Below, one piece after another: positions 1 to 34,106 of a stretch of 34,106 nucleotides of DNA (its first letter is position 1; the number at the start of each line of letters is the position of its first letter). The position numbers were made by a program, and so were the translations under genes. This DNA is from Candidatus Endonucleibacter sp. (ex Gigantidas childressi). GTDB lineage: Bacteria > Pseudomonadota > Gammaproteobacteria > Pseudomonadales > Endozoicomonadaceae. Under the pieces are notes generated by a model that saw nothing but the letters and a program-made list of their open reading frames with translations, was not told the DNA's origin and did not search any database. Location: contig JASXSU010000006.1 in the NCBI GenBank assembly GCA_030674875.1, positions 1-34,106 of the forward strand. Direction: 5' to 3'.

Positions 1-132
1 TGTTGTTGCTTGTTCTGGCGCTTGCGTTAAGCAAGGTGCATTCCACACCATAATAAGAGGCTCTTTATAACGACAATATTCTTCTGGTTTAATTTCACAA
101 TCTTCCCCTATAAAAGGCAACTTACTCCTCCT
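1..132 (-). pseudogene. Copy 1, frameshifted 3' continuation (runs off window)
   Basis: The minus strand, read one frame away from the main copy 1 ORF, continues the family C-terminus: RRSKLPFIGEDCEIKPEE, then YCRYKEPLIMVWNAPC and LTQAPEQATT. It matches the equivalent part of copy 8 at about 29059-29190. An extra A at 133 relative to the other copies explains the break. The transmembrane segment and tail must lie beyond the left edge. Confidence 0.8.
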
Positions 133-3100
133 AGCATTGATTAGTTAAGTTCATATTATAATTATACTGATGGTGTGAGACTCCGTTCGCATCATTGTAA
201 GGTGAGTTATCGAATATCTTTTTAGTTTCATCAAAAGTACAATTACTTATTCCATCTTTATTCTCTCCAATACAAAACCCTATTTGTACATTTGATCTCT
301 TCCCTTCAAATAGTACCATGCTCCTACTTACCGTAAAGTTTGAAATAGAAGCGGAATCAATAAACCCAACAGCACCACCTATTGTTATATCCGTTACTCC
401 CTTAATATTGATAAAGCTTTGACTAACTGCAAGCTGTTCATATGCATCATTTTCTGCCATCTGGCCAGTCCCCCACCCAGCATACACCGAACCACCATCT
501 ATACTCAAGTTAGTTTTGATGATCATTGTATTGGAAAATTGTACGCCTGACTCTGACCTTCCAAAACCACCGCCAACGTTGGATAATCCCCACCGTGAGG
601 ATGAGTTAGCAGCACTAATAACAGTATCAATAACAGTAAGGTCTACAGCAGTAATATCACGAGCAGACCCTATTCCGCCCCCAATAGAAGGAATGTCAGT
701 ATCCGCAATAATAGTAGAGCTAGCAACTGTAGCATGTTCCATTTTACTGCCCTCACCACATCCGATCACCCCACCTACACAAAGACCCTTTACTTCCGTC
801 CTAATAACATGACAGGTACTAACTTTATCAGACTTTGAGTAACCTACTATTCCTCCGACACGAGCTCCAGAAATAATCGAATCTATAACGGTAACATTCT
901 GTATGGTATTCGAAAGGGAATGCCCAGCAACACCTCCAACATAACCTTTTTGACCCGCGACCTTTACAATAGTGTTGCCAATATAAACTTCTTTAATTCT
1001 CACACTTCGCATCTTTCCTACTACCCCACCGACATGTTCTTCCCAGCCTGAGGCAGTAATATTGACATTTACTATCATTACTTTAAAAAATTCACTCCCA
1101 TTATTATATACTTCTCCTACTACCCCACCAACATAGCTAAGCCCAGCGACATTAAGAGTGCTATTTGCTATCATTACATTATCAAAACTAGATGCCTCCA
1201 ACATAACATTAGAGACCATACCTATTACACTATCTATACCAACCCCTTCAAACTTACTATTCTCAATTTTGATAAATCTAACTATGGACTTATCATGCAT
1301 AGTATTGGCAACTGCTGGGTCACATTCTGCATTCCTAGTGTCAACATTATTGAAGTTTATGTTTTGAACGATTCCATTACCTGAAAGTCTGTCTATCAAA
1401 CAGCATGGCAGCTCGTCAAGGGTTTCATTATTTCCATTGAAATCACCTGTAAACACCGGTATTGGTTTGTTGAATTTTTTTACGTTAAAGCTTGCAGTTA
1501 GTTTATAGCTGCCGTTACTAGGGTAATCTGCATGATTGCCAATTAAGTTCAGCTCTGTGACATTACTGATGCCAATAACATTAGAAGCAGAGGCTGCACT
1601 CACATCCCTAATATGCCGAAAATGGTTACTATTTAAATTTGAGCTATCGTGTGCTTGGGTATGGTTCTGAAAAAATGCCTCAGCTTGAGGAGAGCTTGCT
1701 GCTGTAGCAGAGTCCACAACAGCTAAAACACACAAGCCTACAACTGCGCCCATAAGAAGCCTACTGTAAAACGATGAATTATAGCTAGATCCTATCCACA
1801 CAGTATTGCGCTGGCCTCTTGCTTGCTCTTCATTTTTTTCTTCATAATCTATATTAATAAAACACCAATCTACGTGCAAAGGTGATGATTTGGTTGTATT
1901 AGTACCATCACTTTCATAACTCCCATCCGCTTCATTAACCTCAACATCATTTTGTGATTTACTTTTTTGTAACGTATAGTCGTTTGTTGGCATAGACAAC
2001 CAATCTCTATGCTTTTCTTCAGCACTATTGTGTTTCGCAAAATCATTACCACTTGCTGGAATATCTATTGGCTGGTCTGCTTGCTCATATTGTAACTCAC
2101 AATCATTAGCATTTTTATCTGAAACAGCAGTAACAAGTGGTTGGTAGCAATATGTTTTTTGTCGTATATCTGCTTTACGCTGTAACCCTGTTAACAGGGT
2201 AAATGCTTGTTCTTTATCTGAACTAGTAAAATCCTGTGCAACCAGTGTAATTAAAGCATCTTTTATGGTTATATCTCCTTCTTTATGCAGGCTATCTATT
2301 TTTATCAACTCTGCCATAACCAATTGTATGCCTGTATTATCTGAGTTATCTGTTAAATGCAAGGCATTTTTTTGTACCATATTAACCCAGGCAGTCATTA
2401 TTTTTTTGCTTTGCTCTTGCTTGGTTGGTGGTGCCGTAAAGCCATTTTTTACAACATTAAATACATAGTTAATACCAGATGCAACTTTACCCAAAAGACT
2501 GTCTTTCATGTTTTTCTTTAGACCTTCCTCTAGGTATTCATCCCAGTCTTCTTGGCCAAATGATCCGTTTTGTTTATCTTTCTTTGTTTTAGCTTGGTCC
2601 TCTGGGTTAAGGCTTTCTTGTTGTTCTAGGTTGCTATGCATTGCATCTAATGCCACAAATCCAGACTGATAAATGACATTTAATTGTTGTACTGTTTTAA
2701 ACTGATCACTTAAATTTTTTATAACATCGCTAGCTAATAAAGTATTAGCAATCTCTCTGGCTTCACAATCACGTAAAGACTCATTTGCACCATGCCATAC
2801 CTCGGTTACATCTTTTGAGTTGTAATGCAAATAGGAGAAAAATACTTTTTCCTCTGCGCTTATGCCATTTGTTTTGTTTTCTGCTGCAGTCAAATGATAA
2901 TCTTGCGTAACCCAACGTTTGCTATCATCTAGTAATTTGCTTATTAAGCTATCGGAATTACGCGCACCCCAATTCACCAATGCTTCTAATACTGGATATT
3001 GTATCTCTGATGGCGTATTACTTGTTGTAGCTACTACATAATGGGTTGATAATACATCCACTAAGTTACGCGTTTGCTTCAAGACAACCTCATTTAAGAA

Positions 3101-3817
3101 GTGCGTATCATTTTGTGCTCTTGACATCAGCGAACTTACTTGTTCATCTAATTTGGCGCAAATTAGTGGGCTAGCGTTACTCGTCTTAACCTTATCTTGC
3201 CACAAGGTGTGAAGCTTATAAAAGCATTGCTTTGCTCTAGAATTCAATACCTCTGCAACGAACATTTGCTCTTCTTTAGTGAGCTGTGTAAACGTTGTTT
3301 TTGTACTTTTTGGCAGGCGGCAACAAGCTCTCTTCTTTATTTCTTGGGTGATACCGCTAAAACCTATTATCCAGCTAGGTGATTCTAACCCAGCGTTAAT
3401 TATGTCTTGTTCAAGCTCACCAACTTCTAGCAAAATACTTACATATACCATAGCAAGCACTTCAAACACGTTTTTTCCCTTAAATGCTTCTAGAGTAACA
3501 GAAAGATCGTTGTCATCTAGCACATGTTGCAAGCAACTAATGCTATTATCATGGCTTTTGCTATATTCAGCGCCTCCTAATAAGTTGCTACTACTAAAAC
3601 ACCTTCCAGCTAAGTTTGCCTCTCTATCAGCCTGACTATTGGTCCAACTTTTTTTGAGTGGCTGCTCGGCACCTTGTTGGTGCAACTGCTCTGCCGGTGA
3701 CGTATAATTTTGCGCTGAACTTACACTGCAACCACAGGCCAATATCAACAGTAAAAAAACACTTTTTACATGTTTGCAACAGAATGGAATTGAATAAGAT
3801 TTAAATGAGATAAACAT
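131..3817 (-). CDS. Copy 1: GLUG-repeat surface protein, frameshifted near C-terminus
   Basis: Encodes 1,228 residues. Residues 1-35 are a Sec signal peptide with a hydrophobic core and LACGC; cleavage after SSA or lipidation at C28 or C30 are both possible. Residues about 60-640 form the invariant helical domain, which I do not recognise. Residues about 685-710 are a second hydrophobic, signal-like segment ending ATAAS. From about 860 on come GLUG-type repeats (VGGVVGEV, VGGVVGKM, VGGVAGHS, VGGIVGYS, VGGVIGCG). The frame ends at TAG just after the NQC motif, because an extra base at 133 shifts the frame; the expected Cys-rich end continues in another frame at 1-132. The start is ATG at 3817, 11 nt after AGGAG. 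Probably an exported, membrane-anchored adhesin or antigen; role inferred only. Confidence 0.85.
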   Translation of the reverse strand: MFISFKSYSIPFCCKHVKSVFLLLILACGCSVSSAQNYTSPAEQLHQQGAEQPLKKSWTNSQADREANLAGRCFSSSNLLGGAEYSKSHDNSISCLQHVLDDNDLSVTLEAFKGKNVFEVLAMVYVSILLEVGELEQDIINAGLESPSWIIGFSGITQEIKKRACCRLPKSTKTTFTQLTKEEQMFVAEVLNSRAKQCFYKLHTLWQDKVKTSNASPLICAKLDEQVSSLMSRAQNDTHFLNEVVLKQTRNLVDVLSTHYVVATTSNTPSEIQYPVLEALVNWGARNSDSLISKLLDDSKRWVTQDYHLTAAENKTNGISAEEKVFFSYLHYNSKDVTEVWHGANESLRDCEAREIANTLLASDVIKNLSDQFKTVQQLNVIYQSGFVALDAMHSNLEQQESLNPEDQAKTKKDKQNGSFGQEDWDEYLEEGLKKNMKDSLLGKVASGINYVFNVVKNGFTAPPTKQEQSKKIMTAWVNMVQKNALHLTDNSDNTGIQLVMAELIKIDSLHKEGDITIKDALITLVAQDFTSSDKEQAFTLLTGLQRKADIRQKTYCYQPLVTAVSDKNANDCELQYEQADQPIDIPASGNDFAKHNSAEEKHRDWLSMPTNDYTLQKSKSQNDVEVNEADGSYESDGTNTTKSSPLHVDWCFINIDYEEKNEEQARGQRNTVWIGSSYNSSFYSRLLMGAVVGLCVLAVVDSATAASSPQAEAFFQNHTQAHDSSNLNSNHFRHIRDVSAASASNVIGISNVTELNLIGNHADYPSNGSYKLTASFNVKKFNKPIPVFTGDFNGNNETLDELPCCLIDRLSGNGIVQNINFNNVDTRNAECDPAVANTMHDKSIVRFIKIENSKFEGVGIDSVIGMVSNVMLEASSFDNVMIANSTLNVAGLSYVGGVVGEVYNNGSEFFKVMIVNVNITASGWEEHVGGVVGKMRSVRIKEVYIGNTIVKVAGQKGYVGGVAGHSLSNTIQNVTVIDSIISGARVGGIVGYSKSDKVSTCHVIRTEVKGLCVGGVIGCGEGSKMEHATVASSTIIADTDIPSIGGGIGSARDITAVDLTVIDTVISAANSSSRWGLSNVGGGFGRSESGVQFSNTMIIKTNLSIDGGSVYAGWGTGQMAENDAYEQLAVSQSFINIKGVTDITIGGAVGFIDSASISNFTVSRSMVLFEGKRSNVQIGFCIGENKDGISNCTFDETKKIFDNSPYNDANGVSHHQYNYNMNLTNQC

Positions 3818-4037: not shown

Positions 4038-5681
4038 TTAATAATCTGCTGTTAGAGAACCCCTCTCCTCGAGATGATAATCTGTTAGCTGATTACTATT
4101 ATCTGAACAACAACCACAGTTCACAGTTGTTAGCAATCTCTGCAATAAGCCTCTTATCCAACCTATACAGCCAGATCGTGTACTCGCATGGCTATGGCTA
4201 TCACCAGTATCAATGCATTCCTCTTCATTATTTGTACGTGAACCACTTTCCATATCATTATTGTGTTTCGCAAAATCATTACCACTTGCTGGAATATCTA
4301 TTGGCTGGTCTGCTTGCTCATATTGTAACTCACAATCATTAGCATTTTTATCTGAAACAGCAGTAACAAGTGGTTGGTAGCAATATGTTTTTTGTCGTAT
4401 ATCTGCTTTACGCTGTAACCCTGTTAACAGGGTAAACGCTTGTTCTTTATCTGAACTAGTACAATCCTGTGCAACCAGTGTAATTAAAGCATCTTTTATG
4501 GTTATATCTCCTTCTTTATGCAGGCTATCTATTTTTATCAACTCTGCCATAACCAATTGTATGCCTTTATTATCTGAGCTATCTGTTAAATGCAAGGCAT
4601 TTTTTTGTACCATATTAACCCAGGCAGTCATTATTTTTTTGCTTTGCTCTTGCTTGGTTGGTGGTGCCGTAAAGCCATTTTTTACAACATTAAATACATA
4701 GTTAATACCAGATGCAACCTTACCCAAAAGACTGTCTTTCATGTTTTTCTTTAGACCTTCCTTTAGGTATTCATCCCAGTCTTCTTGGCCAAATGATTCG
4801 TTTTGTTTATCTTTCTGTGTTTTAGTTTGGTCCTCTGGGTTAAGGCTTTCTTGTTGTTCTAGGTTGCTATGCATTGCATCTAATGCCACAAATCCAGACT
4901 GATAAATGACATTTAATTGTTGTACTGTTTTAAACTGATCACTTAAATTTTTTATAACATCGCTAGCTAATAAAGTATTAGCAATCTCTCTGGCTTCACA
5001 ATCACGTAAAGACTCATTTGCACCATGCCATACCTCGGTTACATCTTTTGAGTTGTAATGCAAATAAGAGAAAAATACTTTTTCCTCTGCGCTTATGCCA
5101 TTTGTTTTGTTTTCTGCTGCAGTCAAATGATAATCTTGCGTAACCCAACGTTTGCTATCATCTAGTAATTTGCTTATTAAGCTATCGGAATTACGCGCAC
5201 CCCAATTCACCAATGCTTCTAATACTGGATATTGTATCTCTGATGGCGTATTACTTGTTGTAGCTACTACATAATGGGTTGATAATACATCCACTAAGTT
5301 ACGCGTTTGCTTCAAGACAACCTCATTTAAGAAGTGCGTATCATTTTGTGCTCTTAACATCAGCGAACTTACTTGTTCATCTAATTTGGCGCAAATTAGT
5401 GGGCTAGCGTTACTCGTCTTAACCTTATCTTGCCACAAGGTGTGAAGCTTATAAAAGCATTGCTTTGCTCTAGAATTCAATACCTCTGCAACGAACATTT
5501 GCTCTTCTTTAGTGAGCTGTGTAAACGTTGTTTTTGTACTTTTTGGCAGGCGGCAACAAGCTCTCTTCTTTATTTCTTGGGTGATACCGCTAAAACCTAT
5601 TATCCAGCTAGGTGATTCTAACCCAGCGTTAATTATGTCTTGTTCAAGCTCACCAACTTCTAGCAAAATACTTACATACAA
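4038..5681 (-). pseudogene. Copy 2: short-form paralogue, 5' truncated
   Basis: The frame of 547 codons matches residues about 125 onward of the family's invariant helical domain up to GNDFAKHN. It then switches to a private tail of about 75 residues, with SGCIGWIRGLLQRLL followed by NCGCCSDNSN and ending LTADY. It has no GLUG domain and no final transmembrane helix, so it is a module-only version of the family. The signal peptide and first ~123 residues are missing: family sequence stops at about 5678 and is replaced by the 472-bp block. An in-frame TAG lies immediately before the first possible start, a TTG at 5681, with only AGGTGA as a weak ribosome site. Most likely a remnant, though internal translation cannot be excluded. 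Confidence 0.75.
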
Positions 5682-5710
5682 CTAGCATCACCTATTACCC
5701 TCGGGTTAAG

Positions 5711-6150: not shown

Positions 6151-6328
6151 TTAGTGCATCTGTTCATACATATCTACTAACGCGCTAGTATTGTTTGGCG
6201 CAATTATTGGATTTGCAGCATTATCTATGGATTTTTTAGCTTTAGCTTGATCTTTCGCTTTTTTAGCTTTTTTATCTTTTCCGCTTGGATGGTTATCATC
6301 TTCTGTAGACAGCTCCCTATGACCTGAC
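6151..6328 (-). pseudogene. Copy 3, C-terminal tail in shifted frame
   Basis: This is the charged tail SGHRELSTEDDNHPSGKD, then the Lys-rich KKAKKAKDQAKAKK and the end ALVDMYEQMH. It is the natural continuation of copy 3 but is out of frame with the main ORF because of one extra base near 6329. The frame stays open upstream to 6405, but there it only shadows the transmembrane region. Copy 8 has the same tail in frame, which proves the connection. After TAA the same frame runs 44 more codons to 6016. Confidence 0.7.
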
Positions 6329-9300
6329 ACAACAACCTCCATTATTATGCCTTTTATACCAATAAAAACCACCACCAACAGCAGCAACGGCAATAAAAGC
6401 AGCACCAGATGCTACAAGTGCGATTGTAGGCACCGAGGCTGGTGTTTTTGCTAAGCAAGGTGCATTCCACACCATAATAAGAGGCTCTTTATAACGTCTA
6501 TATTCTTCTGGTTTAATTTCACAATCGTTCCCTATAAAAGGCAACTTACTCCCCTTGCATTGATTAGCTAAGTTCATATTATAATTATACTGATGGTGTG
6601 AGACTCCGTTCGCATCATTGTAAGATGAGTTATCGAATATCTTTTTAGTTTCATCAAAAGTACAATTACTTATTCCATGTTTATTCTCTCCAATACAAAA
6701 TCCTATTTGTACATTTGATCCATCCCCTTCAAATAGTATCTTGCTCCTGCTTACCGTAAAGTTTGAAATAGAAGCGGAATCAGTAAACCCAACAGCACCA
6801 CCTATTTTTATATGCGTTACCCCTGTAATATTGATAAAGCTTTGACTAACTGCAAGCTGTTCATATGCACCACTTCCCGTCATCTGGCCCACCCCCCATC
6901 CAGCATACAAAAGACCATCATCTCCATCTATACTCAAGTTAGTTTTGATGATCATTGTATTTAAAAATTGTACGCCTGACTCTGAACTTCCAAAACCACC
7001 GCCAACTTCTGATTGATATTCTGAGGGTTTGATAACAACATCAATAACAGTATCAATAACAGTAAGGTCTACAGCAGTAAAAGATTTAGATAACCCTATT
7101 CCGCCCCCAACAGAAGGAGCTTCAGCATGCGCAATAATAGTAGAACTAGCAACTGTAGCATTTTTCATTTCACTGATTGCACCATATCCGATCACCCCAC
7201 CTACAAAACGACCACTTACTTCCGTCCTAATAACATGACAGGTACTAACTTTTTCATACCATGAGCCACCTACTATTCCTCCGGCATATTTTCCAGAAAT
7301 ATTCGAATCTATAACGGTAACATTCTGTATGAGACTACCAATGGAGTATCCAACAACACCTCCAACATAACCTCTTTGATCCGAGAACTTTACAATAGTC
7401 TTGCCGATATAAACTTCTTTAACTTTCACACCTTTCATATATCCTACTACCCCACCGACAAATTCAACCCCAGCCCCAGCCCCAGCGACATTAAGAGTGC
7501 TATTTGCTATCATTACATTATCAAAACTAGATCCCTCCCGCATAACATTAGAGACCATACCTATAGCATTCCCTTTAACCGCGATCAAATCCTCTTCAAA
7601 ATAGCTACCAACCCCTTTAAACTGACTATTCTCAATTTTGATAAATCTAACTATGGAATCATCAGTCATAGTCTTAGCAACTGCTGGATCACATTCTGCA
7701 TTCCTAGTGTCAACATTATTGAGGTTTATGTTTTGAACGATTCCATTACCTGAAAGTGCGTCTATCAAACAGCATGGCAGCTCGTCAAGGGTTTCACAAT
7801 TTCCATTGAAATCACCTGTAAACTCCGGTATTGGTTTGTTGAATTTTTTTACGTTAAAGCTTCCAGTTAGTTTATAGCGGCCGTTACTAGGGTAATCTGC
7901 ATGATTGCCAATTAAGTTCAGCTCTGCTACATTACTAATGCCAATAACATTAGAAGCAGAGGCTGAACTCACATCCCTAATATGACGAGAATGGCTACTA
8001 TTTAAATTTGAGCTATTGTGTGCTTGGGTATGGTTCTGAAAAAATGCCTCAGCTTGAGGAGAGCTTGCTGCTGTAGCAGAGTCCACAACAGCTAAAACAC
8101 ACAAGCCTACAACTGCGCCCATAAGAAGCCTACTGTAAAACGATGAATTATAGCTAGATCCTATCCACACAGTATTGCGCTGGCCTCTTGCTTGCTCTTC
8201 ATTTTTTTCTTCATAATCTAGATTAATAAAACACCAATCTACGTGCAAAGGTGATGATTTGGTTGTATTAGTACCATCACTTTCATAACTCCCATCCGCT
8301 TCATTAACCTCAACATCATTTTGTGATTTACTTTTTTGTAACGTATAGTCGTTTGTTGGCATAGACAACCAATCTCTATGCTTTTCTTCAGCACTATTGT
8401 GTTTCGCAAAATCATTACCACTTGCTGGAATATCTATTGGCTGGTCTGCTTGCTCATATTGTAACTCACAATCATTAGCATTTTTATCTGAAGCAGCAGT
8501 AACAAGTGGTTGGTAGCAATATGTTTTTTGTCGTATATCTGCTTTACGCTGTAACCCTGTTAACAGGGTAAACGCTTGTTCTTTATCTGAACTAGTACAA
8601 TCCTGTGCAACCAGTGTAATTAAAGCATCTTTTATGGTTATATCTCCTTCTTTATGCAGGCTATCTATTTTTATCAACTCTGCCATAACCAATTGTATAC
8701 CTGTATTATCTGAGCTATCTGTTAAATGCAAGGCATTTTTTTGTACCATATTAACCCAGGCAGTCATTATTTTTTTGCTTTGCTCTTGCTTGGTTGGTGG
8801 TGCCGTAAAGCCATTTTTTACAACATTAAATACATAGTTAATACCAGATGCAACTTTACCCAAAAGACTGTCTTTCATGTTTTTCTTTAGACCTTCCTCT
8901 AGGTATTCATCCCAGTCTTCTTGGCCAAATGATCCGTTTTGTTTATCTTTCTTTGTTTTAGCTTGGCCCTCTGGGTTAAGGCTTTCTTGTTGTTCTAGGT
9001 TGCTATGCATTGCATCTAATGCCACAAATCCAGACTGATAAATGACATTTAATTGTTGTACTGTTTTAAACTGATCACTTAAATTTTTTATAACATCGCT
9101 AGCTAATAAAGTATTAGTAATCTCTCTGGCTTCACAATCACGTAAAGACTCATTTGCACCATGCCATACCTCGGTTACATCTTTTGAGTTGTAATGCAAA
9201 TAAGAGAAAAATACTTTTTCCTCTGCGCTTATGCCATTTGTTTTGTTTTCTTCTGCAGTCAAATGATAATCTTGCGTAACCCAACGTCTGCTATCATCTA

Positions 9301-10147
9301 GTAATTTGCTTATTAAGCTATCGGAATTACGCGCACCCCAATTCACCAATGCTTCTAATACTGGATATTGTATCTCTGCTGGCGTATTACTTGTTGTAGC
9401 TACTACATAATGGGTTGATAATACATCCACTAAGTTACGCGTTTGCTTCAAGACAACCTCATTTAAGAAGTGCGTATCATTTTGTGCTCTTAACATCAGC
9501 GAACTTACTTGTTCATCTAATTTCGCGCAAATTAGTGGGCTAGCGTTACTCGTCTTAACCTTATCTTGCCACAAGGTGTGAAGCTTATAAAAGCATTGCT
9601 TTGCTCTAGAATTCAATACCTCTGCAACGAACATTTGCTCTTCTTTAGTGAGCTGTGTAAACGTTGTTTTTGTACTTTTTGGCAGGCGGCAACAAGCTCT
9701 CTTCTTTATTTCTTGGGTGATACCGCTAAAACCTATTATCCAGCTAGGTGATTCTAACCCAGCGTTAATTATGTCTTGTTCAAGCTCACCAACTTCTAGC
9801 AAAATACTTACATATACCATAGCAAGCACTTCAAACACGTTTTTTCCCTTAAATGCTTCTAGAGTAACAGAAAGATCGTTGTCATCTAGCACATGTTGCA
9901 AACAACTAATGCTATTATCATGGCTTTTGCTATATTCAGCGCCTCCTAATAAGTTGCTACCACTAAAACACCTTCCAGCTAAGTTTTCCTCTCTATCAGC
10001 CTGACTATGGTCCAGCTTTTTTTGAGTGGCTGCTCGGCACCTTGTTGGTGCAACTGCTCTGCCGGTGACGTATAATTTTGCGCTGAACTTACACTGCAAC
10101 CACAGGCCAATATCAACAGTAAAAAAACACTTTTTACATGTTTGCAA
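6317..10147 (-). CDS. Copy 3: GLUG-repeat surface protein, main open frame
   Basis: The long open frame of copy 3 (1,276 codons from an internal ATG). From about residue 50 on it follows the family exactly: helical domain, hydrophobic segment MGAVVGLCVLAVV, GLUG repeats, Cys-rich segment, NAPCLAKTP, then the transmembrane helix AAFIAVAAVGGGFYWYKRHN. It ends CVRS because an extra base near 6329 throws off the tail. The first ~50 residues (MQTCKKCFFTVDIGL...) are an out-of-frame reading of the signal-peptide region, since one T is missing near 10009. The true start is ATG at 10185, in the other frame. As read, the protein would lack a signal peptide. The two shifts (-1 and +1) cancel for the tail. 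Confidence 0.75.
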   Translation of the reverse strand: MQTCKKCFFTVDIGLWLQCKFSAKLYVTGRAVAPTRCRAATQKKLDHSQADREENLAGRCFSGSNLLGGAEYSKSHDNSISCLQHVLDDNDLSVTLEAFKGKNVFEVLAMVYVSILLEVGELEQDIINAGLESPSWIIGFSGITQEIKKRACCRLPKSTKTTFTQLTKEEQMFVAEVLNSRAKQCFYKLHTLWQDKVKTSNASPLICAKLDEQVSSLMLRAQNDTHFLNEVVLKQTRNLVDVLSTHYVVATTSNTPAEIQYPVLEALVNWGARNSDSLISKLLDDSRRWVTQDYHLTAEENKTNGISAEEKVFFSYLHYNSKDVTEVWHGANESLRDCEAREITNTLLASDVIKNLSDQFKTVQQLNVIYQSGFVALDAMHSNLEQQESLNPEGQAKTKKDKQNGSFGQEDWDEYLEEGLKKNMKDSLLGKVASGINYVFNVVKNGFTAPPTKQEQSKKIMTAWVNMVQKNALHLTDSSDNTGIQLVMAELIKIDSLHKEGDITIKDALITLVAQDCTSSDKEQAFTLLTGLQRKADIRQKTYCYQPLVTAASDKNANDCELQYEQADQPIDIPASGNDFAKHNSAEEKHRDWLSMPTNDYTLQKSKSQNDVEVNEADGSYESDGTNTTKSSPLHVDWCFINLDYEEKNEEQARGQRNTVWIGSSYNSSFYSRLLMGAVVGLCVLAVVDSATAASSPQAEAFFQNHTQAHNSSNLNSSHSRHIRDVSSASASNVIGISNVAELNLIGNHADYPSNGRYKLTGSFNVKKFNKPIPEFTGDFNGNCETLDELPCCLIDALSGNGIVQNINLNNVDTRNAECDPAVAKTMTDDSIVRFIKIENSQFKGVGSYFEEDLIAVKGNAIGMVSNVMREGSSFDNVMIANSTLNVAGAGAGVEFVGGVVGYMKGVKVKEVYIGKTIVKFSDQRGYVGGVVGYSIGSLIQNVTVIDSNISGKYAGGIVGGSWYEKVSTCHVIRTEVSGRFVGGVIGYGAISEMKNATVASSTIIAHAEAPSVGGGIGLSKSFTAVDLTVIDTVIDVVIKPSEYQSEVGGGFGSSESGVQFLNTMIIKTNLSIDGDDGLLYAGWGVGQMTGSGAYEQLAVSQSFINITGVTHIKIGGAVGFTDSASISNFTVSRSKILFEGDGSNVQIGFCIGENKHGISNCTFDETKKIFDNSSYNDANGVSHHQYNYNMNLANQCKGSKLPFIGNDCEIKPEEYRRYKEPLIMVWNAPCLAKTPASVPTIALVASGAAFIAVAAVGGGFYWYKRHNNGGCCVRS

Positions 10148-10185
10148 CAGAATGGAATTGAATAAGATTTAAATGAGATAAACAT
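9979..10185 (-). pseudogene. Copy 3, signal-peptide fragment before frameshift
   Basis: From the genuine family start ATG at 10185: MFISFKSYSIPFCCKHVKSV, hydrophobic core, LACGCSVSSAQ, then LKKSWT, after which the frame is lost. Copies 1 and 8 read ctattggtcc where this copy has ctatggtcc (about 10007-10012), so one T is missing. Restoring it would join this fragment to 6317-10147. Confidence 0.75.
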
Positions 10186-11580: not shown

Positions 11581-11719
11581 CCCACCTACAAAACGACCAT
11601 TTACTTCCGTCCTAATAACATGACAGGTACTAACTTTATCAGACTTTGAGTAACCTACTATTCCTCCGGCAATGCTTCCAAAAATATTCGAATCTATAAC
11701 GGTAATATTCTGTATGGCA

Positions 11720-24067: not shown

Positions 24068-24092
24068 TGCTGTTTTTACTGCTGCAACATGT

Positions 24093-24135
24093 TAACAGGT
24101 AACCAAGAGATAAACAACAGATAAACAATATAACC
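24093..24135. repeat. 11-bp tandem repeats upstream of copy 6
   Basis: taacaggtaac, caagagataaa, caacagataaa and a partial caatataacc: three to four 11-bp units, one more than upstream of copies 3 and 4. Confidence 0.6.
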
Positions 24136-24407
24136 AAAATAGCCGTCTAAAGCATCAAGAGAACCCGTGCGCTAAATTGCTATATAATACAATAACTTAT
24201 AGTGAAATAAATACAAGCATGCTAGTAACTGATAAAGATGCAGCCCACAAACATTCATAACTTTATAGTTTCAAATATAGTGTAATTGTCACTCATTATT
24301 TTACAATTTAATATTGTAGGTATTTACCAAAAACGGTAAAACTTATATTTACTTCTCAGATAATTTTAAAACAACTTAATAGTACCCATAACCCATCGTA
24401 CTTCAAA

Positions 24408-24465: not shown

Positions 24466-27400
24466 CTACTCAACTGCACCTGAAGACTCAATCATACTCA
24501 TACCTTCTTCAGCTTTTTGTTCATCTTTTCCGCTTGGATGGTCACCATCTTCTGTATACAGCTCCCTATGACCTGAACAACAACCTCCATTATTATGCCT
24601 TTTATAGCAATAAAAACCACCACCAACAGCAGTAGCGGCAATAAGAATAGTACTAGATACCCCAAGTGAGGCTGTAGACACTCTGTCTACATAGACTGGT
24701 GTTTTTACTACGCAAGGTGTATTCCATACCATAATAACAGGCTCTTTATAACGTCTATATTCTTCTGGTTTAATTTCACAATCGTTTCCTATAAAAGGCA
24801 ACTTACTCCATCTACATTGATTAATTAAGTTCATATTATACTGTTGGCATGAGGCTGCGCTCGCATCATTGCAAGATGAGTTATCTAATAGCTTTTTAGT
24901 TTCATCAAAGTCACATTTACTATTTCCGTTGTTGCGTCCCATACAAAACCCTATTTGTACATTTGATCCCTCCCCTTCAAGTAGTACCATGCTCCCACTT
25001 ACCGTAAAGCTTGAAATAGAAGCGGACTCAATAAACCCAACAGCACCACCTATTGTTATATGCGTTACCCCTGTAATATTGATAAAGCTTTGACTAACTG
25101 CAAGCTGTTCATATGCACCACTTCCCGTCATCTTGCCCACCCCCCATCCAGCAGACAAAACACCATCATCTCCATCTATACTCAAGTTAGTTTTGATGAT
25201 CATTGTATTGGAAAATTGTACGCCTGACTCTGACTTTCCAAAACCACCGCCAACTTCTGATTGATATTCTGAGGGTTTGATAACAACATCAATAACAGTA
25301 TCAATAACAGTAAGGTCTACAGCAGTAATATCACGAGCATACCCTATTCCGCCCCCAGCAGAAGGAGCGTAAGTATCCGCAATAATAGTAGAGCTAGCAA
25401 CTGTAGCATGTTCCATTTTACTGCCGTCACCAGATCCGATCACCCCACCTACAAAACGACCACTTACTTCCGTCCTAATAACATGACAGAGACTAACTGT
25501 ATTATGCCTTGAGACACCTACTATTCCTCCGGCATATTTTCCAGAAATACTCGAATCTATAACGGTAACATTCTGTATGGAGCTACGATCGGAGTCTCCA
25601 GCAACACCGGCAACAAAACTTTCTTGACCCGCGCCCTTTACAATAGTGTTGCCGATATAAGCTTCTTTAATTTCTATACCTAGCATCATTCCTGCTACCC
25701 CACCGATACGTGCATCCTTGCCTGAGCCAGTAATATTGACATTTACTATTCTTGCTTTAAAAACTTCACTCCCCATATTATGTGCTGCTCCTACGACCCC
25801 ACCGGCATATTTAACCCCACTAAGGCCATTAAGAGTGCTATTTGCTATCATTACATTATCAAAACTAGATGCCCCCCGCATAACATTAGAGACCATACCT
25901 ATAGCATTCCCTTCAAAGTCGCCACTATCCTCTTTAAAATAGCTACCACCCCCTTCAAACTGACTATTCGCAATTTTGATAAATCTAACTATGGACTCAT
26001 CATACATAGTATTGGCAACTGCTGGATCACATTCTGCATTCCTAGTGTTAACATTATTGAAGTTTATGTTTTGAACTATTCCCTTACCTGCAAGTGTTTT
26101 TATCAAGCAGCATGGCAGCTCGTCAATGGTTTCACAATTTCCATTGAAATCACCTGTAAACACATGTATTGGTCCGGTGAAGTTTTTTACGTTAAAGCTT
26201 GCAGTTAGTTTATAGCGACCGTAATTAGGGTAATCTCTATGATTGCCAATTAAGTTCAGCTCTGTGACATTACTGATGCCAATAACATTAGAAGCAGAGG
26301 CTGCACTCACATCCCTAATATGACGAAAATGGTTACTATTTAAATTTGAGCTATCGTGTGCTTGGGTATGGTTCTGAAAAAATGTCTCAGCTTGAGGAGA
26401 GCTTGCTGCTGTAGCAGAGTCCACAACAGCTAAAACACACAAGCCTACAACTGCGCCCATAAGAAGCCTACTGTAAAACGATGAATTATAGCTAGATCCT
26501 ATCCACACAGTCTTGCGCTGACCTCTTGCTTGCTCTTCATTTTTTTCTTCATAATCTAGATTAATAAAACACCAATCTACGTGCAAAGGTGATGATTTGG
26601 TTGTATTAGTACCATCACTTTCATAACTCCCATCAGCTTCATTATACGCAACATCATTTTGTGATTTACTTTTTTGTAACGTATAGTCGTTTGTTGGCAT
26701 AGACAACCAATCTCTATGCTTTTCTTCAGCACTATTGTGTTTCGCAAAATCATTACCACTTGCTGGAATATCTATTGGCTGGTCTGCTTGCTCATATTGT
26801 AACTCACAATCATTAGCATTTTTATCTGAAGCAGCAGTAACAAGTGGTTGGTAGCAATATGTTTTTTGTCGTATATCTGCTTTACGCTGTAACCCTGTTA
26901 ACAGGGTAAACGCTTGTTCTTTATCTGAACTAGTACAATCCTGTGCAACCAGTATAGTTAAAGCATCTTTTATGGTTATATCTCCTTCTTTATACAGGCT
27001 ATCTATTTTTATCAACTCTGCCATAACCAATTGTATGCCTTTATTATCTGAGCTATCTGTTAAATGCAAGGCATTTTTTTGTACCATATTAACCCAGGCA
27101 GTCATTATTTTTTTGCTTTGCTCTTGCTTGGTTGGTGGTGCCGTAAAGCCATTTTTTACAACATTAAATACATAGTTAATACCAGATGCAACCTTACCCA
27201 AAAGACTGTCTTTCATGTTTTTCTTTAGACCTTCCTCTAGGTATTCATCCCAGTCTTCTTGGCCAAATGATCCGTTTTGTTTATCTTTCTTTGTTTTAGC
27301 TTGGTCCTCTGGGTTAAGGCTTTCTTGTTGTTCTAGGTTGCTATGCATTGCATCTAATGCCACAAATCCAGACTGATAAATGACATTTAATTGTTGTACT

Positions 27401-28155
27401 GTTTTAAACTGATCACTTAAATTTTTTATAACATCGCTAGCTAATAAAGTATTAGCAATCTCTCTGGCTTCACAATCACGTAAAGACTCATTTGCACCAT
27501 GCCATACCTCGGTTACATCTTTTGAGTTGTAATGCAAATAAGAGAAAAATACTTTTTCCTCTGCGCTTATGCCATTTGTTTTGTTTTCTGCTGCAGTCAA
27601 ATGATAATCTTGCGTAACCCAACGTTTGCTATCATCTAGTAATTTGCTTATTAAGCTATCGGAATTACGCGCACCCCAATTCACCAATGCTTCTAATACT
27701 GGATATTGTATCTCTGATGGCGTATTACTTGTTGTAGCTACTACATAATGGGTTGATAATACATCCACTAAGTTACGCGTTTGCTTCAAGACAACCTCAT
27801 TTAAGAAGTGCGTATCATTTTGTGCTCTTAACATCAGCGAACTTACTTGTTCATCTAATTTGGCGCAAATTAGTGGGCTAGCGTTACTCGTCTTAACCTT
27901 ATCTTGCCACAAGGTGTGAAGCTTATAAAAGCATTGCTTTGCTCTAGAATTGAATACCTCTGCAACGAACATTTGCTCTTCTTTAGTGAGCTGTGTAAAC
28001 GTTGTTTTTGTACTTTTTGGCAGGCGGAAACAAGCTCTCTTCTTTATTTCTTGGGTGATACCGCTAAAACCTATTATCCAGCTAGGTGATTCTAACCCAG
28101 CGTTAATTATGTCTTGTTCAAGCTCACCAACTTCTAGCAAAATACTTACATACAA
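24466..28155 (-). pseudogene. Copy 7: GLUG-repeat surface protein lacking its 5' end
   Basis: Open for 1,229 codons, and from family residue about 125 to the end it is intact. It has the helical domain, hydrophobic segment, GLUG repeats (AGGVVGAA, IGGVAGMM, VAGVAGDS, AGGIVGVS, VGGVIGSG, AGGGIGYA, VGGGFGKS), Cys-rich segment, transmembrane helix ILIAATAVGGGFYCYKRHN and tail ending SSGAVE. The signal peptide and first ~123 residues are absent. Family sequence ends near 28152 and the 472-bp block begins. The only start available is TTG at 28155, right after an in-frame TAG. The junction is identical to that of copy 2. As it stands it has no export signal at its N-terminus; it may act as a silent donor for recombination. 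Confidence 0.8.
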
Positions 28156-28624
28156 CTAGCATCACCTATTACCCTCGGGTTAAGTTGACGACATTAAAGT
28201 ATGAATAAAATCATATCGTTAGCCGTAACTCTTAAGGTTGATGCGCACCAAATCCGTCTTTATTGCACAGCTCATACCACCCTTACTGCATTCTGTATAG
28301 CGTATCTGAATATCTTTGCTCGTTTACTGACTACTCATCCTTCAACAGTAACGAGTATACCTTAAGAGGGGGCATCCTTTGTTTTTTTGTAAGCACCCCC
28401 TTTATATGATCCACAGTTATTTTGTTAAACCTCCCTAGCTACCTTTTTTATAATCTTACCACTAGCTAGCCACTTCTAAACTAGCTTATTTATTTCTTTT
28501 TTAATCTATTTTTACGTTTTGGTAATGGATTTTCTACCTTTTTCGGCAGAACTTCATCTACACTAATCTGTTTATAACCACGTGATAGTGTTCCCTTATT
28601 TACCTCATCATCTACTAGGCTCAG
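28153..28624. repeat. 472-bp junction block, second copy
   Basis: Duplicate of 5679-6150 with one substitution noticed. It again lies between a gene truncated at the YVSILL codons and a gene ending ALVDMYEQMH. It carries the same 54-codon plus-strand ORF (28201-28365), promoter-like TTGACG/TAAAAT (28185-28211) and GC hairpin (28365-28403). Confidence 0.85.
28201..28365 (+). CDS. Possible 54-residue small ORF, second copy
   Basis: Same sequence as 5727-5891 (MNKIISLAVTL...). No recognised family and no clear ribosome site; kept only as a candidate. Confidence 0.22.
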   Translation: MNKIISLAVTLKVDAHQIRLYCTAHTTLTAFCIAYLNIFARLLTTHPSTVTSIP

Positions 28625-29833
28625 TTAGTGCATCTGTTCATACATATCTACTAACGCGCTAGTATTGTTTGGCGCAATTATTGGATTTGCAGCATTATCT
28701 ATGGATTTTTTAGCTTTAACTTGATCTTTCGCTTTTTTAGCTTTTTTATCTTTTCCGCTTGGATGGTCATCATCTTCTGTAGACAGCTCCCTATGATCTG
28801 AATAACAAACTAACGCGCTAGTATTGTTTGGCGCAATTATTGGATTTGCAGCATTATCTATGGATTTTTTAGCTTTAGCTTGATCTTTCGCTTTTTTAGC
28901 TTTTTTATCTTTTCCGCTTGGATGGTCATCATCTTCTGTAGACAGCTCCCTATGATCTGAACAACAACCTCCATTATTATGCCTTTTATACCAATAAACA
29001 CCACCACCAACAGCAGCAACGGCAATAAAAGCAGCACCAGATGCTCCAAGTAGGATTGTAGGCACTGTTGTTGCTTGTTCTGGCGCTTGCGTTAAGCAAG
29101 GTGCATTCCATACCATAATAAGAGGCTCTTTATAACGACAATATTCTTCTGGTTTAATTTCACAATCGTTCCCTATAAAAGGCAACTTACTCCCCTTGCA
29201 TTGATTAGTTAAGTTCATATTATAATTATACTGATGGTGTGAGACTCCGTTCGCATCATTGTAAGGTGAGTTATCGAATATCTTTTTAGTTTCATCAAAA
29301 GTACAATTACTTATTCCATCTTTATTCTCTCCAATACAAAACCCTATTTGTACATTTGATCTCTTCCCTTCAAATAGTACCATGCTCCCACTTACCGTAA
29401 AGTTTGAAATAGAAGCGGAATCAATAAACCCAACAGCACCACCTATTGTTATATCCGTTACTCCCTTAATATTGATAAAGCTTTGACTAACTGCAAGCTG
29501 TTCATATGCATCATTTTCTGCCATCTGGCCAGTCCCCCACCCAGCATACACCGAACCACCATCTATACTCAAGTTAGTTTTGATGATCATTGTATTGGAA
29601 AATTGTACGCCTGACTCTGACCTTCCAAAACCACCGCCAACGTTGGATAATCCCCACCGTGAGGATGAGTTAGCAGCACTAATAACAGTATCAATAACAG
29701 TAAGGTCTACAGCAGTAATATCACGAGCAGACCCTATTCCGCCCCCAATAGAAGGAATGTCAGTATCCGCAATAATAGTAGAGCTAGCAACTGTAGCATG
29801 TTCCATTTTACTGCCCTCACCACATCCGATCAC
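28625..29833 (-). pseudogene. Copy 8, C-terminal part with duplicated tail
   Basis: Homologous coding extends upstream to about 30013, where a missing T breaks the frame; the ATG at 29833 is internal. It holds GLUG repeats (IGGGIGSA, VGGGFGRS, IGGAVGFI), CTFDETKKIF, NQCKGSKLPFIGNDCEI, NAPCLTQAP, the transmembrane helix AAFIAVAAVGGGVYWYKRHN and a Lys-rich tail. The tail module (DHRELSTEDDDHPSGKD ... APNNTSALV) occurs twice in tandem before DMYEQMH. The GLUG part is almost identical to copy 1. Confidence 0.8.
28650..28967 (-). repeat. 159-bp tandem duplication in copy 8 tail
   Basis: Two units starting at 28650 and 28809 (actaacgcgctag...), 159 bp or 53 codons, in frame. They differ at few bases (for example ttaacttgatc versus ttagcttgatc). 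Copy 3 has one unit. Confidence 0.9.
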
Positions 29834-29946
29834 CCCACCTACACAACGACCCTTTACTTCCGTCCTAATAACATGACAGGTACTAACTTTATCAGACTTT
29901 GAGTAACCTACTATTCCTCCGACACGAGCTCCAGAAATAATCGAAT

Positions 29947-30216
29947 CTATAACGGTAACATTCTGTATGGTATTCGAAAGGGAATGCCCAGCAACACCTC
30001 CAACATAACCTTTTGACCCGCGACCTTTACAATAGTGTTGCCAATATAAACTTCTTTAATTCTCACACTTCGCATCTTTCCTGCTACCCCACCGACATGT
30101 GCTTCCCGGCCTGAGCCAGTAATATTGACATTTACTATCATTACTTTAAAAAATTCACTCCCATTATTATATACTTCTCCTACTACCCCACCAACATATT
30201 TAACCCCAGCTGCCAT
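29947..30216 (-). pseudogene. Copy 8, GLUG fragment between frameshifts
   Basis: Reads GVKYVGGVVGEVYNNGSEFF, VGGVAGKM and IKEVYIGNTIVKVAGQK, then leaves the family frame because ccttttgac (about 30009-30017) has four T where copy 1 has five. Its upstream limit is an extra base at 30210. Confidence 0.75.
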
Positions 30217-30412
30217 TAAGAGTGCTATTTGCTATCATTACATTATCAAAACTAGATGCCTCCAACATAACATTAGAGACCATACCTATCTTACTATCTA
30301 TACCAACCCCTTCAAACTTACTATTCTCAATTTTGATAAATCTAACTATGGACTTATCATGCATAGTACTTGGCAACTGCTGGGTCACATTCTGCATTCC
30401 TAGTGTCAACAT
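30200..30412 (-). pseudogene. Copy 8, short fragment between frameshifts
   Basis: Reads DKSIVRFIKIENSKFEGVGI, SKIGMVSNVMLEASSFDNVM and IANSTLN. It matches copy 1 there. Bounded by an extra base at 30368-30369 (agtacttgg) and another at 30210 (ccagctgcc). Confidence 0.75.
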
Positions 30413-32882
30413 TATTGAAGTTTATGTTTTGAACGATTCCATTACCTGAAAGTCTGTCTATCAAGCAGCATGGCAGCTCGTCAAGGGTTTCACCATTTCC
30501 ATTGAAATCACCTGTAAACTCCCGTATTGGTTTGTTGAATTTTTTTACGTTAAAGCTTGCAGTTAGTTTATAGCGGCCGTTACTAGGGTAATCTGCATGA
30601 TTGCCAATTAAGTTCAGCTCTGTGACATTACTGATGCCAATAACATTAGAGGCAGAGGCTGCACTCACATCCCTAATATGACGAAAATGGTTACTATTTA
30701 AATTTGAGCTATCGTGTGCTTGGGTATGGTTCTTAAAAAATGCCTCAGCTTGAGGAGAGCTTGCTGCTGTAGCAGAGTCCACAACAGCTAAAACACACAA
30801 GCCTACAACTGCGCCCATAAGAAGCCTACTGTAAAACGATGAATTATAGCTAGATCCTATCCACACAGTCTTGCACTGGCCTCTTGCTTGCTCTTCATTT
30901 TTTTCTTCATAATCTATATTAATAAAACACCAATCTACGTGCAAAGGTGATGGTTTGGTTGTATTAGTACCATCACTTTCATAACTCCCATCCGCTTCAT
31001 TAACCTCAACATCATTTTGTGATTTACTTTTTTGTAACGTATAGTCGTTTGTTGGCATAGACAACCAATCTCTATGCTTTTCTTCAGCACTATTGTGTTT
31101 CGCAAAATCATTACCACTTGCTGGAATATCTATTGGCTGGTCTGCTTGCTCATATTGTAACTCACAATCATTAGCATTTTTATCTGAAACAGCAGTAACA
31201 AGTGGTTGGTAGCAATATGTTTTTTGTCGTATATCTGCTTTACGCTGTAACCCTGTTAACAGGGTAAATGCTTGTTCTTTATCTGAACTAGTACAATCCT
31301 GTGCAACCAGTGTAGTTAAAGCATCTTTTATGGTTATATCTCCTTCTTTATGCAGGCTATCTATTTTTATCAACTCTGCCATAACCAATTGTATGCCTGT
31401 ATTATCTGAGTTATCTGTTAAATGCAAGGCATTTTTTTGTACCATATTAACCCAGGCAGTCATTATTTTTTTGCTTTGCTCTTGCTTGGTTGGTGGTGCC
31501 GTAAAGCCATTTTTTACAACATTAAATACATAGTTAATACCAGATGCAACCTTACCCAAAAGACTGTCTTTCATGTTTTTCTTTAGACCTTCCTCTAGGT
31601 ATTCATCCCAGTCTTCTTGGCCAAATGATCCGTTTTGTTTATCTTTCTTTGTTTTAGCTTGGTCCTCTGGGTTAAGGCTTTCTTGTTGTTCTAGGTTGCT
31701 ATGCATTGCATCTAATGCCACAAATCCAGACTGATAAATGACATTTAATTGTTGTACTGTTTTAAACTGATCACTTAAATTTTTTATAACATCGCTAGCT
31801 AATAAAGTATTAGCAATCTCTCTGGCTTCACAATCACGTAAAGACTCATTTGCACCATGCCATACCTCGGTTACATCTTTTGAGTTGTAATGCAAATAGG
31901 AGAAAAATACTTTTTCCTCTGCGCTTATGCCATTTGTTTTGTTTTCTTCTGCAGTCAAATGATAATCTTGCGTAACCCAACGTTTGCTATCATCTAGTAA
32001 TTTGCTTATTAAGCTATCGGAATTACGCGCACCCCAATTCACCAATGCTTCTAATACTGGATATTGTATCTCTGATGGCGTATTACTTGTTGTAGCTACT
32101 ACATAATGGGTTGATAATACATCCACTAAGTTACGCGTTTGCTTCAAGACAACCTCATTTAAGAAGTGCGTATCATTTTGTGCTCTTAACATCAGCGAAC
32201 TTACTTGTTCATCTAATTTGGCGCAAATTAGTGGGCTAGCGTTACTCGTCTTAACCTTATCTTGCCACAAGGTGTGAAGCTTATAAAAGCATTGCTTTGC
32301 TCTAGAATTCAATACCTCTGCAACGAACATTTGCTCTTCTTTAGTGAGCTGTGTAAACGTTGTTTTTGTACTTTTTGGCAGGCGGCAACAAGCTCTCTTC
32401 TTTATTTCTTGGGTGATACCGCTAAAACCTATTATCCAGCTAGGTGATTCTAACCCAGCGTTAATTATGTCTTGTTCAAGCTCACCAACTTCTAGCAAAA
32501 TACTTACATATACCATAGCAAGCACTTCAAACACGTTTTTTCCCTTAAATGCTTCTAGAGTAACAGAAAGATCGTTGTCATCTAGCACATGTTGCAAGCA
32601 ACTAATGCTATTATCATGGCTTTTGCTATATTCAGCGCCTCCTAATAAGTTGCTACTACTAAAACACCTTCCAGCTAAGTTTTCCTCTCCATCAGCCTGA
32701 CTATTGGTCCAACTTTTTTTGAGTGGCTGCTCGGCATCTTGTTGGTGCAACTGCTCTGCCGGTGTCGTATAATTGTGCGCTGAACTTACACTGCAACCAC
32801 AGGCCAATATCAACAGTAAAAAAACACTTTTTACATGTTTGCAACAGAATGGAATTGAATAAGATTGAAATGAGCCAAGCAT
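30357..32882 (-). CDS. Copy 8: surface protein, N-terminal part
   Basis: 841 residues from ATG 32882, with AGGAG 11 nt upstream. The N-terminus MLGSFQSYSIPFCC is slightly different, followed by the usual LACGCSVSSA signal, invariant helical domain and hydrophobic segment MGAVVGLCVLAVV. The end is DELPCCLIDRLSGNGIVQ, then NAECDPAVAKYYA where the frame is lost. The break is an extra base in agtacttgg at 30368-30369. Correcting three single-base changes (30369, 30210, about 30013) would restore a full-length gene with the copy 1 GLUG domain and the MYEQMH tail. Product function unknown; exported as read, but without a C-terminal anchor. Confidence 0.8.
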   Translation of the reverse strand: MLGSFQSYSIPFCCKHVKSVFLLLILACGCSVSSAHNYTTPAEQLHQQDAEQPLKKSWTNSQADGEENLAGRCFSSSNLLGGAEYSKSHDNSISCLQHVLDDNDLSVTLEAFKGKNVFEVLAMVYVSILLEVGELEQDIINAGLESPSWIIGFSGITQEIKKRACCRLPKSTKTTFTQLTKEEQMFVAEVLNSRAKQCFYKLHTLWQDKVKTSNASPLICAKLDEQVSSLMLRAQNDTHFLNEVVLKQTRNLVDVLSTHYVVATTSNTPSEIQYPVLEALVNWGARNSDSLISKLLDDSKRWVTQDYHLTAEENKTNGISAEEKVFFSYLHYNSKDVTEVWHGANESLRDCEAREIANTLLASDVIKNLSDQFKTVQQLNVIYQSGFVALDAMHSNLEQQESLNPEDQAKTKKDKQNGSFGQEDWDEYLEEGLKKNMKDSLLGKVASGINYVFNVVKNGFTAPPTKQEQSKKIMTAWVNMVQKNALHLTDNSDNTGIQLVMAELIKIDSLHKEGDITIKDALTTLVAQDCTSSDKEQAFTLLTGLQRKADIRQKTYCYQPLVTAVSDKNANDCELQYEQADQPIDIPASGNDFAKHNSAEEKHRDWLSMPTNDYTLQKSKSQNDVEVNEADGSYESDGTNTTKPSPLHVDWCFINIDYEEKNEEQARGQCKTVWIGSSYNSSFYSRLLMGAVVGLCVLAVVDSATAASSPQAEAFFKNHTQAHDSSNLNSNHFRHIRDVSAASASNVIGISNVTELNLIGNHADYPSNGRYKLTASFNVKKFNKPIREFTGDFNGNGETLDELPCCLIDRLSGNGIVQNINFNNVDTRNAECDPAVAKYYA

Positions 32883-32893
32883 AGTGCTATCTA

Positions 32894-33180: not shown

Positions 33181-33254
33181 CGGTAAAACTTATATTTACT
33201 TCTCAGATAATTTTAAAACAACTTAATAGTACCCATAACCCATCGTACTTCAAA

Positions 33255-33292: not shown

Positions 33293-33312
33293 GCGTACAG
33301 ATTCAATTACAG

Positions 33313-34106
33313 CTACTCAACTGCACCTGAAGACTCAATCATACTCATACTTTCGTCAGCTTTTTGTTCATCTTTTCCGCTTGAATGGTCATCATCTTCT
33401 GTAGACAGCTCCCTATGATCTGAAGAACCACCATCTCCATTAATCTTCCTTTGATACCAATAACAACCAGCACTATAAGCAGCAACGGCAATAAAAGAAC
33501 CACAAGATACTCCAATAATTAATGCTTCTTTAGGTACTTCTTTAGGTGCTTCTGTAGGTGATTCTGTAGGTGCTTCTATAGGTGCTTCTATAGGTGCTTC
33601 TATAGGTGCTTCTATAGGTGCTTCTATAGGTGCTTCTGTAGGTGCTTCTGTAGGTGCTTCTGTAGGTGCTTCTATAGGTGCTTCTGTAGGTGCTTCTGTA
33701 GGTGCTTCTGTAGGTGCTTCTGTAGGTGCTTCTGTAGGTGTTTCTGTAGGTGTTGTAGGTGTTGTAGGTGTTGTAGGTGTTGTAGGTGTTTCTGTAGGTC
33801 CTTCTGTAGGTGTTTCTGTAGGTGTTGTAGGTGTTGTAGGTGCTTCTGTAGGTGCTTCTGTAGGTGCTTCTGTAGGTGCTTCTGTAGGTGCTTCTGTAGG
33901 TGTTTCTGTAGGTCCTTCTGTAGGTGTTTCTGTAGGTGTTTCTGTAGGTCCTTCTGTAGGTGTTTCTGTAGGTGTTGTAGGTGTTGTAGGTGCTTCTGTA
34001 GGTGCTTCTGTAGGTGCTTCTGTAGGTGTTTCTGTAGGTCCTTCTGTAGGTGTTGTAGGTGCTTCTGTAGGTGTTTCTGTAGGTGTTGTAGGTGCTTCTG
34101 TAGGTG
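33313..34106 (-). CDS. Copy 9: surface protein, 3' end only, very long PT stalk
   Basis: The open frame enters from the right edge and ends at TAG 33313-33315. Reading toward the C-terminus: a long Thr/Glu/Pro stalk (TEAP, TETP, TEGP, IEAP and TTP units), then KEVPKEALIIGVSCG, FIAVAAYSAGCYWYQRKI, GDGGSSDHRELSTEDDDH and a tail ending SSGAVE. The transmembrane segment is the copy 5/6 type. At least 190 residues of stalk lie in the window. No start codon is available here, and the GLUG and N-terminal parts must lie beyond the edge. Identity with the family is certain from the tail; whether the gene is intact is unknown. Confidence 0.85.
   Translation of the reverse strand, partial: PTEAPTTPTETPTEAPTTPTEGPTETPTEAPTEAPTEAPTTPTTPTETPTEGPTETPTETPTEGPTETPTEAPTEAPTEAPTEAPTEAPTTPTTPTETPTEGPTETPTTPTTPTTPTTPTETPTEAPTEAPTEAPTEAPTEAPIEAPTEAPTEAPTEAPIEAPIEAPIEAPIEAPIEAPTESPTEAPKEVPKEALIIGVSCGSFIAVAAYSAGCYWYQRKINGDGGSSDHRELSTEDDDHSSGKDEQKADESMSMIESSGAVE
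33533..34106 (-). repeat. Mixed 12-bp/9-bp VNTR stalk, copy 9
   Basis: At least 574 bp of 12-bp units (ggtgcttctgta, ggtgtttctgta, ggtccttctgta, ggtgcttctata) interspersed with 9-bp units (ggtgttgta, coding TTP). Both are multiples of 3. Longer composite blocks recur, such as gtttctgtaggtccttctg followed by two 9-bp units, so the array has also grown by duplication of several units at once. It continues past the window. Confidence 0.9.

Follow-up and report, generated by a model that had tools for sequence, protein, structure and literature searches.

The 34,106-base window (the whole stretch of DNA analysed here, which is the complete contig C6 of a 3.68-Mb, 12-contig assembly) is one part of a dispersed family of paralogous, probably exported proteins. 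It seems rather probable that their N-terminal half is kept alike, and their β-helix half diversified, by in-register gene conversion acting together with selection, the whole forming a likely reservoir of variants.

The family and its arrangement

How many copies are there, and how many can still be read? Contig C6 contains nothing but the array, with all copies on the minus strand and each contig end falling inside a copy (Table 1). The initial annotation described an array of nine genes. The tandem minus-strand order is borne out and the locus is larger than claimed, as the window belongs to a 38-copy family. The count and the state of the genes have to be revised: the window has eight 5' ends and one C-terminal end, and only two of the eight copies are open and full length, four being broken and two lacking the first 362 bases.

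The 38 copies lie on four contigs and were collected by an own-genome protein search and a nucleotide map, a copy being counted when at least 300 bases of the N-terminal half aligned. By our own sorting, 19 are full length and open (one of them cut by the end of its contig), 10 combine a complete 5' end with a broken frame, eight are 5'-truncated and one is an isolated chimera; a full 5' end is thus present in 29 of the 38. The tail is frame-altered in three of the 19 open copies and of another type in two. By coordinates the arrays span about 168 kb, or 4-5% of the assembly by our own arithmetic. An ARAGORN scan of the window found no tRNA, and tRNA scans of five other loci were likewise empty. 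IS4-like transposase ORFs, read from translations, lie at one array edge (C1:140244-141225). Four array edges have the same flank at about 96-97%, those at C1:6189-10019, C1:654553-658393 and C2:1501-5177 being related to C1:140244-141225.

Table 1. Features of the window (window coordinates) and places of the family copies in the assembly
Feature	Position	Strand	Remarks
Copy 1	131..3817	-	Full 5' end, 1228 codons open; frame lost before the C-terminal end, which runs on in another frame up to the contig edge
Copy 2	4038..5687	-	Starts at family nt 363, ends near nt 1795; without β-helix
Shared 569-bp segment	5688..6256	-	Upstream of copy 2
Copy 3	6317..10185	-	Full 5' end; early frame break with the first stop at codon 68; remainder mostly open
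Copy 4	10780..14653	-	977 codons open, break inside the β-helix; rest is a second ORF
Copy 5	15061..19377	-	Open, 1438 codons; Pro/Thr stalk, C-terminal hydrophobic segment and tail
Copy 6	19788..24044	-	Open, 1418 codons; reference copy
Copy 6, β-helix (GLUG-type) domain	20118..21665	-	Model pLDDT 85.7, pTM 0.88
Linker repeat, about 81 bp (TESFLYNTTQIDSST...)	21683..21835	-	Copy number varies among copies
Copy 6, near-invariant N-core	21975..23789	-	Codons 86-690
Copy 6, 5' spacer	24091..24147	-	Degenerate GTTTATCTGTT-like repeats; length varies among copies
Copy 7	24466..28161	-	5'-truncated at nt 363; otherwise open across β-helix and tail
Shared 569-bp segment	28162..28730	-	Upstream of copy 7
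Copy 8	28625..32882	-	841 codons open, broken β-helix; 98.6-99.6% identical to the start of C1
Copy 9, C-terminal end	33313..34104	-	Truncated by the contig end; has Pro/Thr stalk, hydrophobic segment and tail
Family copies	Start of C1		Two
Family copies	C1:141-191 kb		Eleven
Family copies	C1:655-664 kb		Two
Family copy	C1:1304 kb		Single
Family copy	C1:1515 kb		Single
Family copies	C2, each end		One per end
Family copy	C3:1252-1257 kb		Single
Family copies	C3:1315-1356 kb		Ten
Family copies	Window (C6)		Eight

The near-invariant N-terminal half

Silent sites were compared among the 19 open copies (171 pairs). The N-core (codons 86-690) has a pS of 0.027. The value is 0.085 for codons 36-85 and 0.073-0.079 for the β-helix, taken in three parts; for codons 1-35, pN is 0.048 and pS 0.024. 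The first ~1.9 kb of every gene had been described as nearly invariant, silent sites included. This holds for the N-terminal half in general but not for codons 36-85, and variability does not set in at 1.9 kb: diversity climbs near codon 720-790 instead. Is the N-core held by constraint? Of the five pairs of remoter N-domain paralogues tested, four have a pS of 0.38-0.56 (the fifth is a recent duplicate, pS 0.012), so constraint is not what holds these silent sites. The comparison supports an N-core that has been homogenised or is young, in agreement with the gene conversion or very recent duplication first suggested from silent invariance, and plain recent duplication fits poorly with a pS that changes about threefold within a single gene.

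Of five further loci that carry the N-domain (34-55% identity), one has a near-duplicate at C2:240431. Within C2:226000-245999 a segment of ~7.7 kb was duplicated recently, and this duplication contains two near-identical remote family members as well as a phosphoserine aminotransferase-like neighbour. The loci at C3:467621-470230 and C3:201895-205050 keep the N-domain with quite different C-terminal parts, in which the GLUG β-helix is not visible. In Pfam the N-domain of member 1 matched no family, and among seven members four weak matches turned up, each isolated in a single member. PDB sequences gave two unconvincing matches (E 0.15 and 0.34) and NCBIfam weak matches only. The structure model of the N-domain is helical, with low confidence.

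The variable β-helix half

The variable half is modelled confidently as a right-handed β-helix. Its closest fold match is that of the IgA1 proteases, and carbohydrate-active β-helices share the fold too. Copy 1 scores 22.7 bits against PF07581 (GLUG), above the curated cut-off of 20.5; of the other window proteins two fall below the cut-off and one has no match, and the window β-helix alone scores 22.1 bits. Scanning the own genome with PF07581 returned no match, although single proteins pass the cut-off. The four whole window proteins scanned contain no M26 catalytic domain family. The protein is probably an exported membrane protein, and the signal-peptide-like start, further hydrophobic segments, β-helix, Pro/Thr stalk and tail are the features that would make it a candidate surface antigen. 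A polymorphic toxin is not favoured, as the C-terminus is a hydrophobic segment and a tail common to many copies; the next ORF after each copy is the next copy, and no toxin family was detected in the four window proteins scanned. A second tandem array at C3:28000-47999 comprises about ten ORFs (257-477 aa); most of them have a start of the MKLKIKAKAFIGCL type, and in several there is a short match to the β-helix start.

The comparison of dN/dS by domain, proposed in the initial annotation, separates the two halves of the gene: the pooled value is 0.48 in the N-core (95% codon bootstrap 0.32-0.74) and 1.69 in the β-helix (1.37-2.13). It reaches 3.59 (2.59-5.35) in a 99-codon stripe on either side of the GG-x-x-G turn motif, a value biased upward because the stripe was picked after the entropy profile, for its variability, and is 1.18 (0.81-1.80) outside the stripe within codons 940-1225. 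Entropy plotted relative to the turn motif peaks at one phase, and none of 2000 random phases is as high; mean entropy barely differs between strands (0.59) and loops (0.64). Diversifying selection on the β-helix half is well supported by these codon comparisons.

Where does the variety of the turns come from? Each of nine turns is found as 25-31 distinct DNA words in 33 copies, and the nine-turn haplotypes of these 33 copies are all different. Since most words are private to one copy and whole blocks are seldom shared, block shuffling can explain only part of the pattern. Exchange between different helix turns was rejected, as no word of at least 12 bases is common to registers, fewer than in shuffles. 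Words that are private and confined to their register imply short, in-register exchange; mutation under selection, or donors outside the sample, must account for much of the variety seen in the turns. A diversity-generating retroelement was rejected too, with no RVT_1 match in the genome and, at variable sites, an A fraction without marked excess (0.29 in the stripe vs 0.28 outside it).

Evidence for recombination among copies

The block sharing from which recombination was first proposed is present. IDVVIKPSEYQSEVGGGFG is found in both copies 3 and 7, SKMEHATVASSTIIAD is common to copies 1, 7 and 8, and GVVGAA and NVNITGSG occur in copies 4 and 6 as claimed, copy 7 carrying both too. A PHI-type test of linkage and compatibility on 19 copies (62 sites in the N-core, 221 in the β-helix) placed nearby-site compatibility above all permutations in both regions (0 of 500 reached the observed value). 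Mean r2 within 10 bases is 0.475 in the N-core and 0.196 in the β-helix and falls to 0.06-0.08 beyond 100 bases, near the 1/(n-1) background for 19 copies. Recombination-free simulations on a fitted single tree (20 at each of two rate settings) yielded far fewer incompatible site pairs than observed: 0.54 observed vs a simulated mean of 0.08-0.12 (maximum 0.17) in the N-core, and 0.52 vs 0.24 (maximum 0.30) in the β-helix, where only 9 informative fourfold sites exist, too few for a clean silent-site test. A copying model divided the β-helix into 11.2 segments per copy vs 4.8-5.5 in five simulations (33 copies, the five without the region left out) and the N-core into 3.0 vs 1.5-2.2 (34 copies, four left out). 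Distances across blocks correlate weakly to moderately (-0.14 to 0.57).

The isolated gene at C3:1252816-1257531 adds a different kind of evidence. From nt 801 to 2500 it is on average 88-99% identical to the 19 open copies (95-99% up to nt 2100), with both flanks at 52-89%, and this central stretch of ~1.7 kb can be read as a conversion tract. The PHI-type test, the linkage decay, the tree-only simulations, the copying model and the tract agree with the recombination originally proposed from shared blocks. Ectopic recombination combined with diversifying selection is well supported at the sequence level. Loss of mismatch repair was rejected, a MutS_V match being present in the genome.

Truncated and broken copies

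All eight truncated copies, on C1, C2, C3 and C6, start at the same base, nt 363, and upstream of each lies a 569-bp segment with 99-100% identity. The same segment is found twice more outside the arrays, at C3:1244304 and C3:1248967 (98-99%). This pattern can be read as one rearrangement, in which a different 3' flank became joined to a beheaded copy, that would have spread to eight positions. In the broken copies, the frame breaks up to the β-helix end are small indels, mostly outside homopolymers, several of which were found in more than one pair of copies, so random sequencing error is unlikely as their main cause. Applied to the 19 open copies, the frame-break script flagged solely linker repeats, in two copies. 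The first stop falls at codon 841 in three copies, on C1, C3 and C6; those on C1 and C6 are near-duplicates and the one on C3 arrives there via a different indel. The recurrence suggests that broken copies take part in exchange.

Flanks and distribution

The 29 full copies have a similar 45-base proximal 5' flank, with at least three sequence types further upstream, and the similarity of the proximal flanks makes a single-expression-site design unlikely. The 5' spacer consists of degenerate 11-bp repeats and, in the 27 of 29 copies in which it was measured (four via another anchor), is 20-142 bases long, most commonly 46.

How widespread are the two halves? The N-domain profile matches the own genome only, both within the family (1 of 37 genomes, none in the 36 others) and in an order sample of 389 other genomes plus the own (1 of 390, with up to two candidates scored per genome). 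The β-helix profile matches 15 of the 37 family genomes, the own included, with up to 23 matches in one of the 14 others; identities in a single-sequence search are 23-35%. The β-helix proteins of other genomes of the family are thus alike in the β-helix and differ in having no N-domain. As the β-helix is widespread in the family and the N-domain is seen only here, a β-helix has been joined to the N-domain. No sequence relatives were found in plasmids, in viral contigs searched with two patterns, or in genome_contigs, a collection from which near relatives may be left out. In one housekeeping protein, identity to two other genomes of the genus is 78% and 74%.

'Candidatus Endonucleobacter' has been described as a group of intranuclear parasites of deep-sea mussels within the Endozoicomonadaceae, and the 'Ca. 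E. childressi' genome was assembled from PacBio HiFi reads; genes combining BIR and RING number seven in this species and thirteen in 'Ca. E. puteoserpentis' (PMC11521996). In the present assembly seven ORFs have both BIR and RING matches, paired by place and ORF length. This points with moderate confidence to 'Ca. Endonucleobacter', perhaps 'Ca. E. childressi', and the organism would be an animal parasite. At C1:1275951-1289609 five weak RING matches below the cut-off are spaced ~3.4 kb apart and may mark a third tandem array. The main text of PMC11521996 contains none of the words GLUG, adhesin or antigen.

Proposed mechanism and alternative explanations

Most likely, ordinary homologous recombination takes place between near-identical copies, with tracts extending into the β-helix. 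Repeated in-register gene conversion would keep the N-terminal half alike and make the β-helix half different, while selection for amino-acid change would act on a stripe of positions near the turns of the helix. Copies that are broken or 5'-truncated have sequence in common with intact ones and may act as donors. The likely use would be to present ligand or antigen variants to the host, or to phages and other attackers. We infer that the proteins are exposed, that they contact the host, that switching is ongoing and that broken copies are donors; antigenic variation, display to the host and evasion of recognition are plausible from the sequence of this one genome.

Is switching needed at all? 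The copies could be adhesins or lectin-binding proteins that form a standing repertoire: many would be made at once, and their diversity would suit varied host glycans or innate receptors rather than the timed switching of a single exposed antigen. We give this reading a little less than an even chance. No unique expression site was seen; the similar proximal 5' flanks and full 5' ends of 29 of the 38 copies (19 of them open) and a fold common to carbohydrate-active β-helices as well as IgA1 proteases also fit such a repertoire, which would have no need for the broken or truncated copies that make up about half of the family. Neutral concerted evolution, in which tandemly duplicated genes undergo recombination and decay while display is not under selection, is very unlikely: it would account for the 10 broken and 8 truncated copies and the transposase ORFs at array edges, but is weakened by the lower bound of 1.37 on the β-helix dN/dS, by diversity in phase with the turn motif and by the 19 open frames that have been kept.

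An assembly artefact, with mosaics or extra copies arising from merged strains or misjoined repeat reads, is improbable as well. The ends of the window and several other contig ends do fall inside copies, and C1:2-4497 matches window positions 28962-33358 at 98.6-99.6%, so that one copy may be counted twice; copy 8 and the first C1 copy may have arisen by recent duplication, stem from two strains or represent a single place that was assembled twice. Among the matches listed, however, the other between-place alignments of at least 2 kb are at most 99.5% identical, most near 98%; single copies stand at C1:1304 kb, C1:1515 kb and C3:1252 kb, and the frame breaks are mostly away from homopolymers. 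Plain allelic duplicates are likewise not general, the exception being copy 8, which is near-identical to the start of C1 and 98.5% identical to copy 1.

Gene conversion with selection on the β-helix is the reading we prefer. Going further, we consider tentatively that a bacterium which infects invertebrates, possibly inside the nucleus, uses about 4-5% of its assembly for a recombining β-helix display repertoire, with broken copies as donors. This would resemble antigenic variation, directed at a host without antibodies, and its combination of scaffold and lineage-restricted N-domain is undescribed in the literature searched. No report of GLUG-based antigenic variation, of gene conversion in Endozoicomonadaceae or of antigenic variation in Endozoicomonas was found in open-licence literature. 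If the repertoire is displayed to the host, it would be an antigenic-variation-style system in a lineage without such a report in that literature. What would an invertebrate host recognise so as to drive such variation? Apart from this question, the family is a rich natural record of short-tract gene conversion beyond the usual model pathogens.

Comparison with known systems

The predicted β-helix resembles in fold the N-terminal β-helix of GLUG/M26 IgA1 proteases. The fold match is confined to the β-helix, with about 20% identity and a best M26_N score, among those shown, below its cut-off. As in the vlsE/vls cassettes of Borrelia burgdorferi (PMC2632889), a conserved frame surrounds variable regions, conversion is short and broken copies may be tolerated as donors. 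However, vlsE has one expression site and partial cassettes, whereas in this family the 5' end is complete in 29 of 38 copies, the scaffold is a β-helix and switching is putative. Of the features of vls- and pil-type systems, gene conversion among copies was found, and a layout of mostly partial cassettes was not, as eight of the 38 copies are 5'-truncated. The vlhA family of Mycoplasma gallisepticum (PMC6258824) is similar in its large arrays of mostly complete paralogues and in having variable-number repeats near the promoter. Spacer length could tune expression here as it does in vlhA, which is only a lead: unlike in vlhA, the spacer repeats are degenerate, and 11 of the 27 measured spacers fit 37, 48 or 59 bases.
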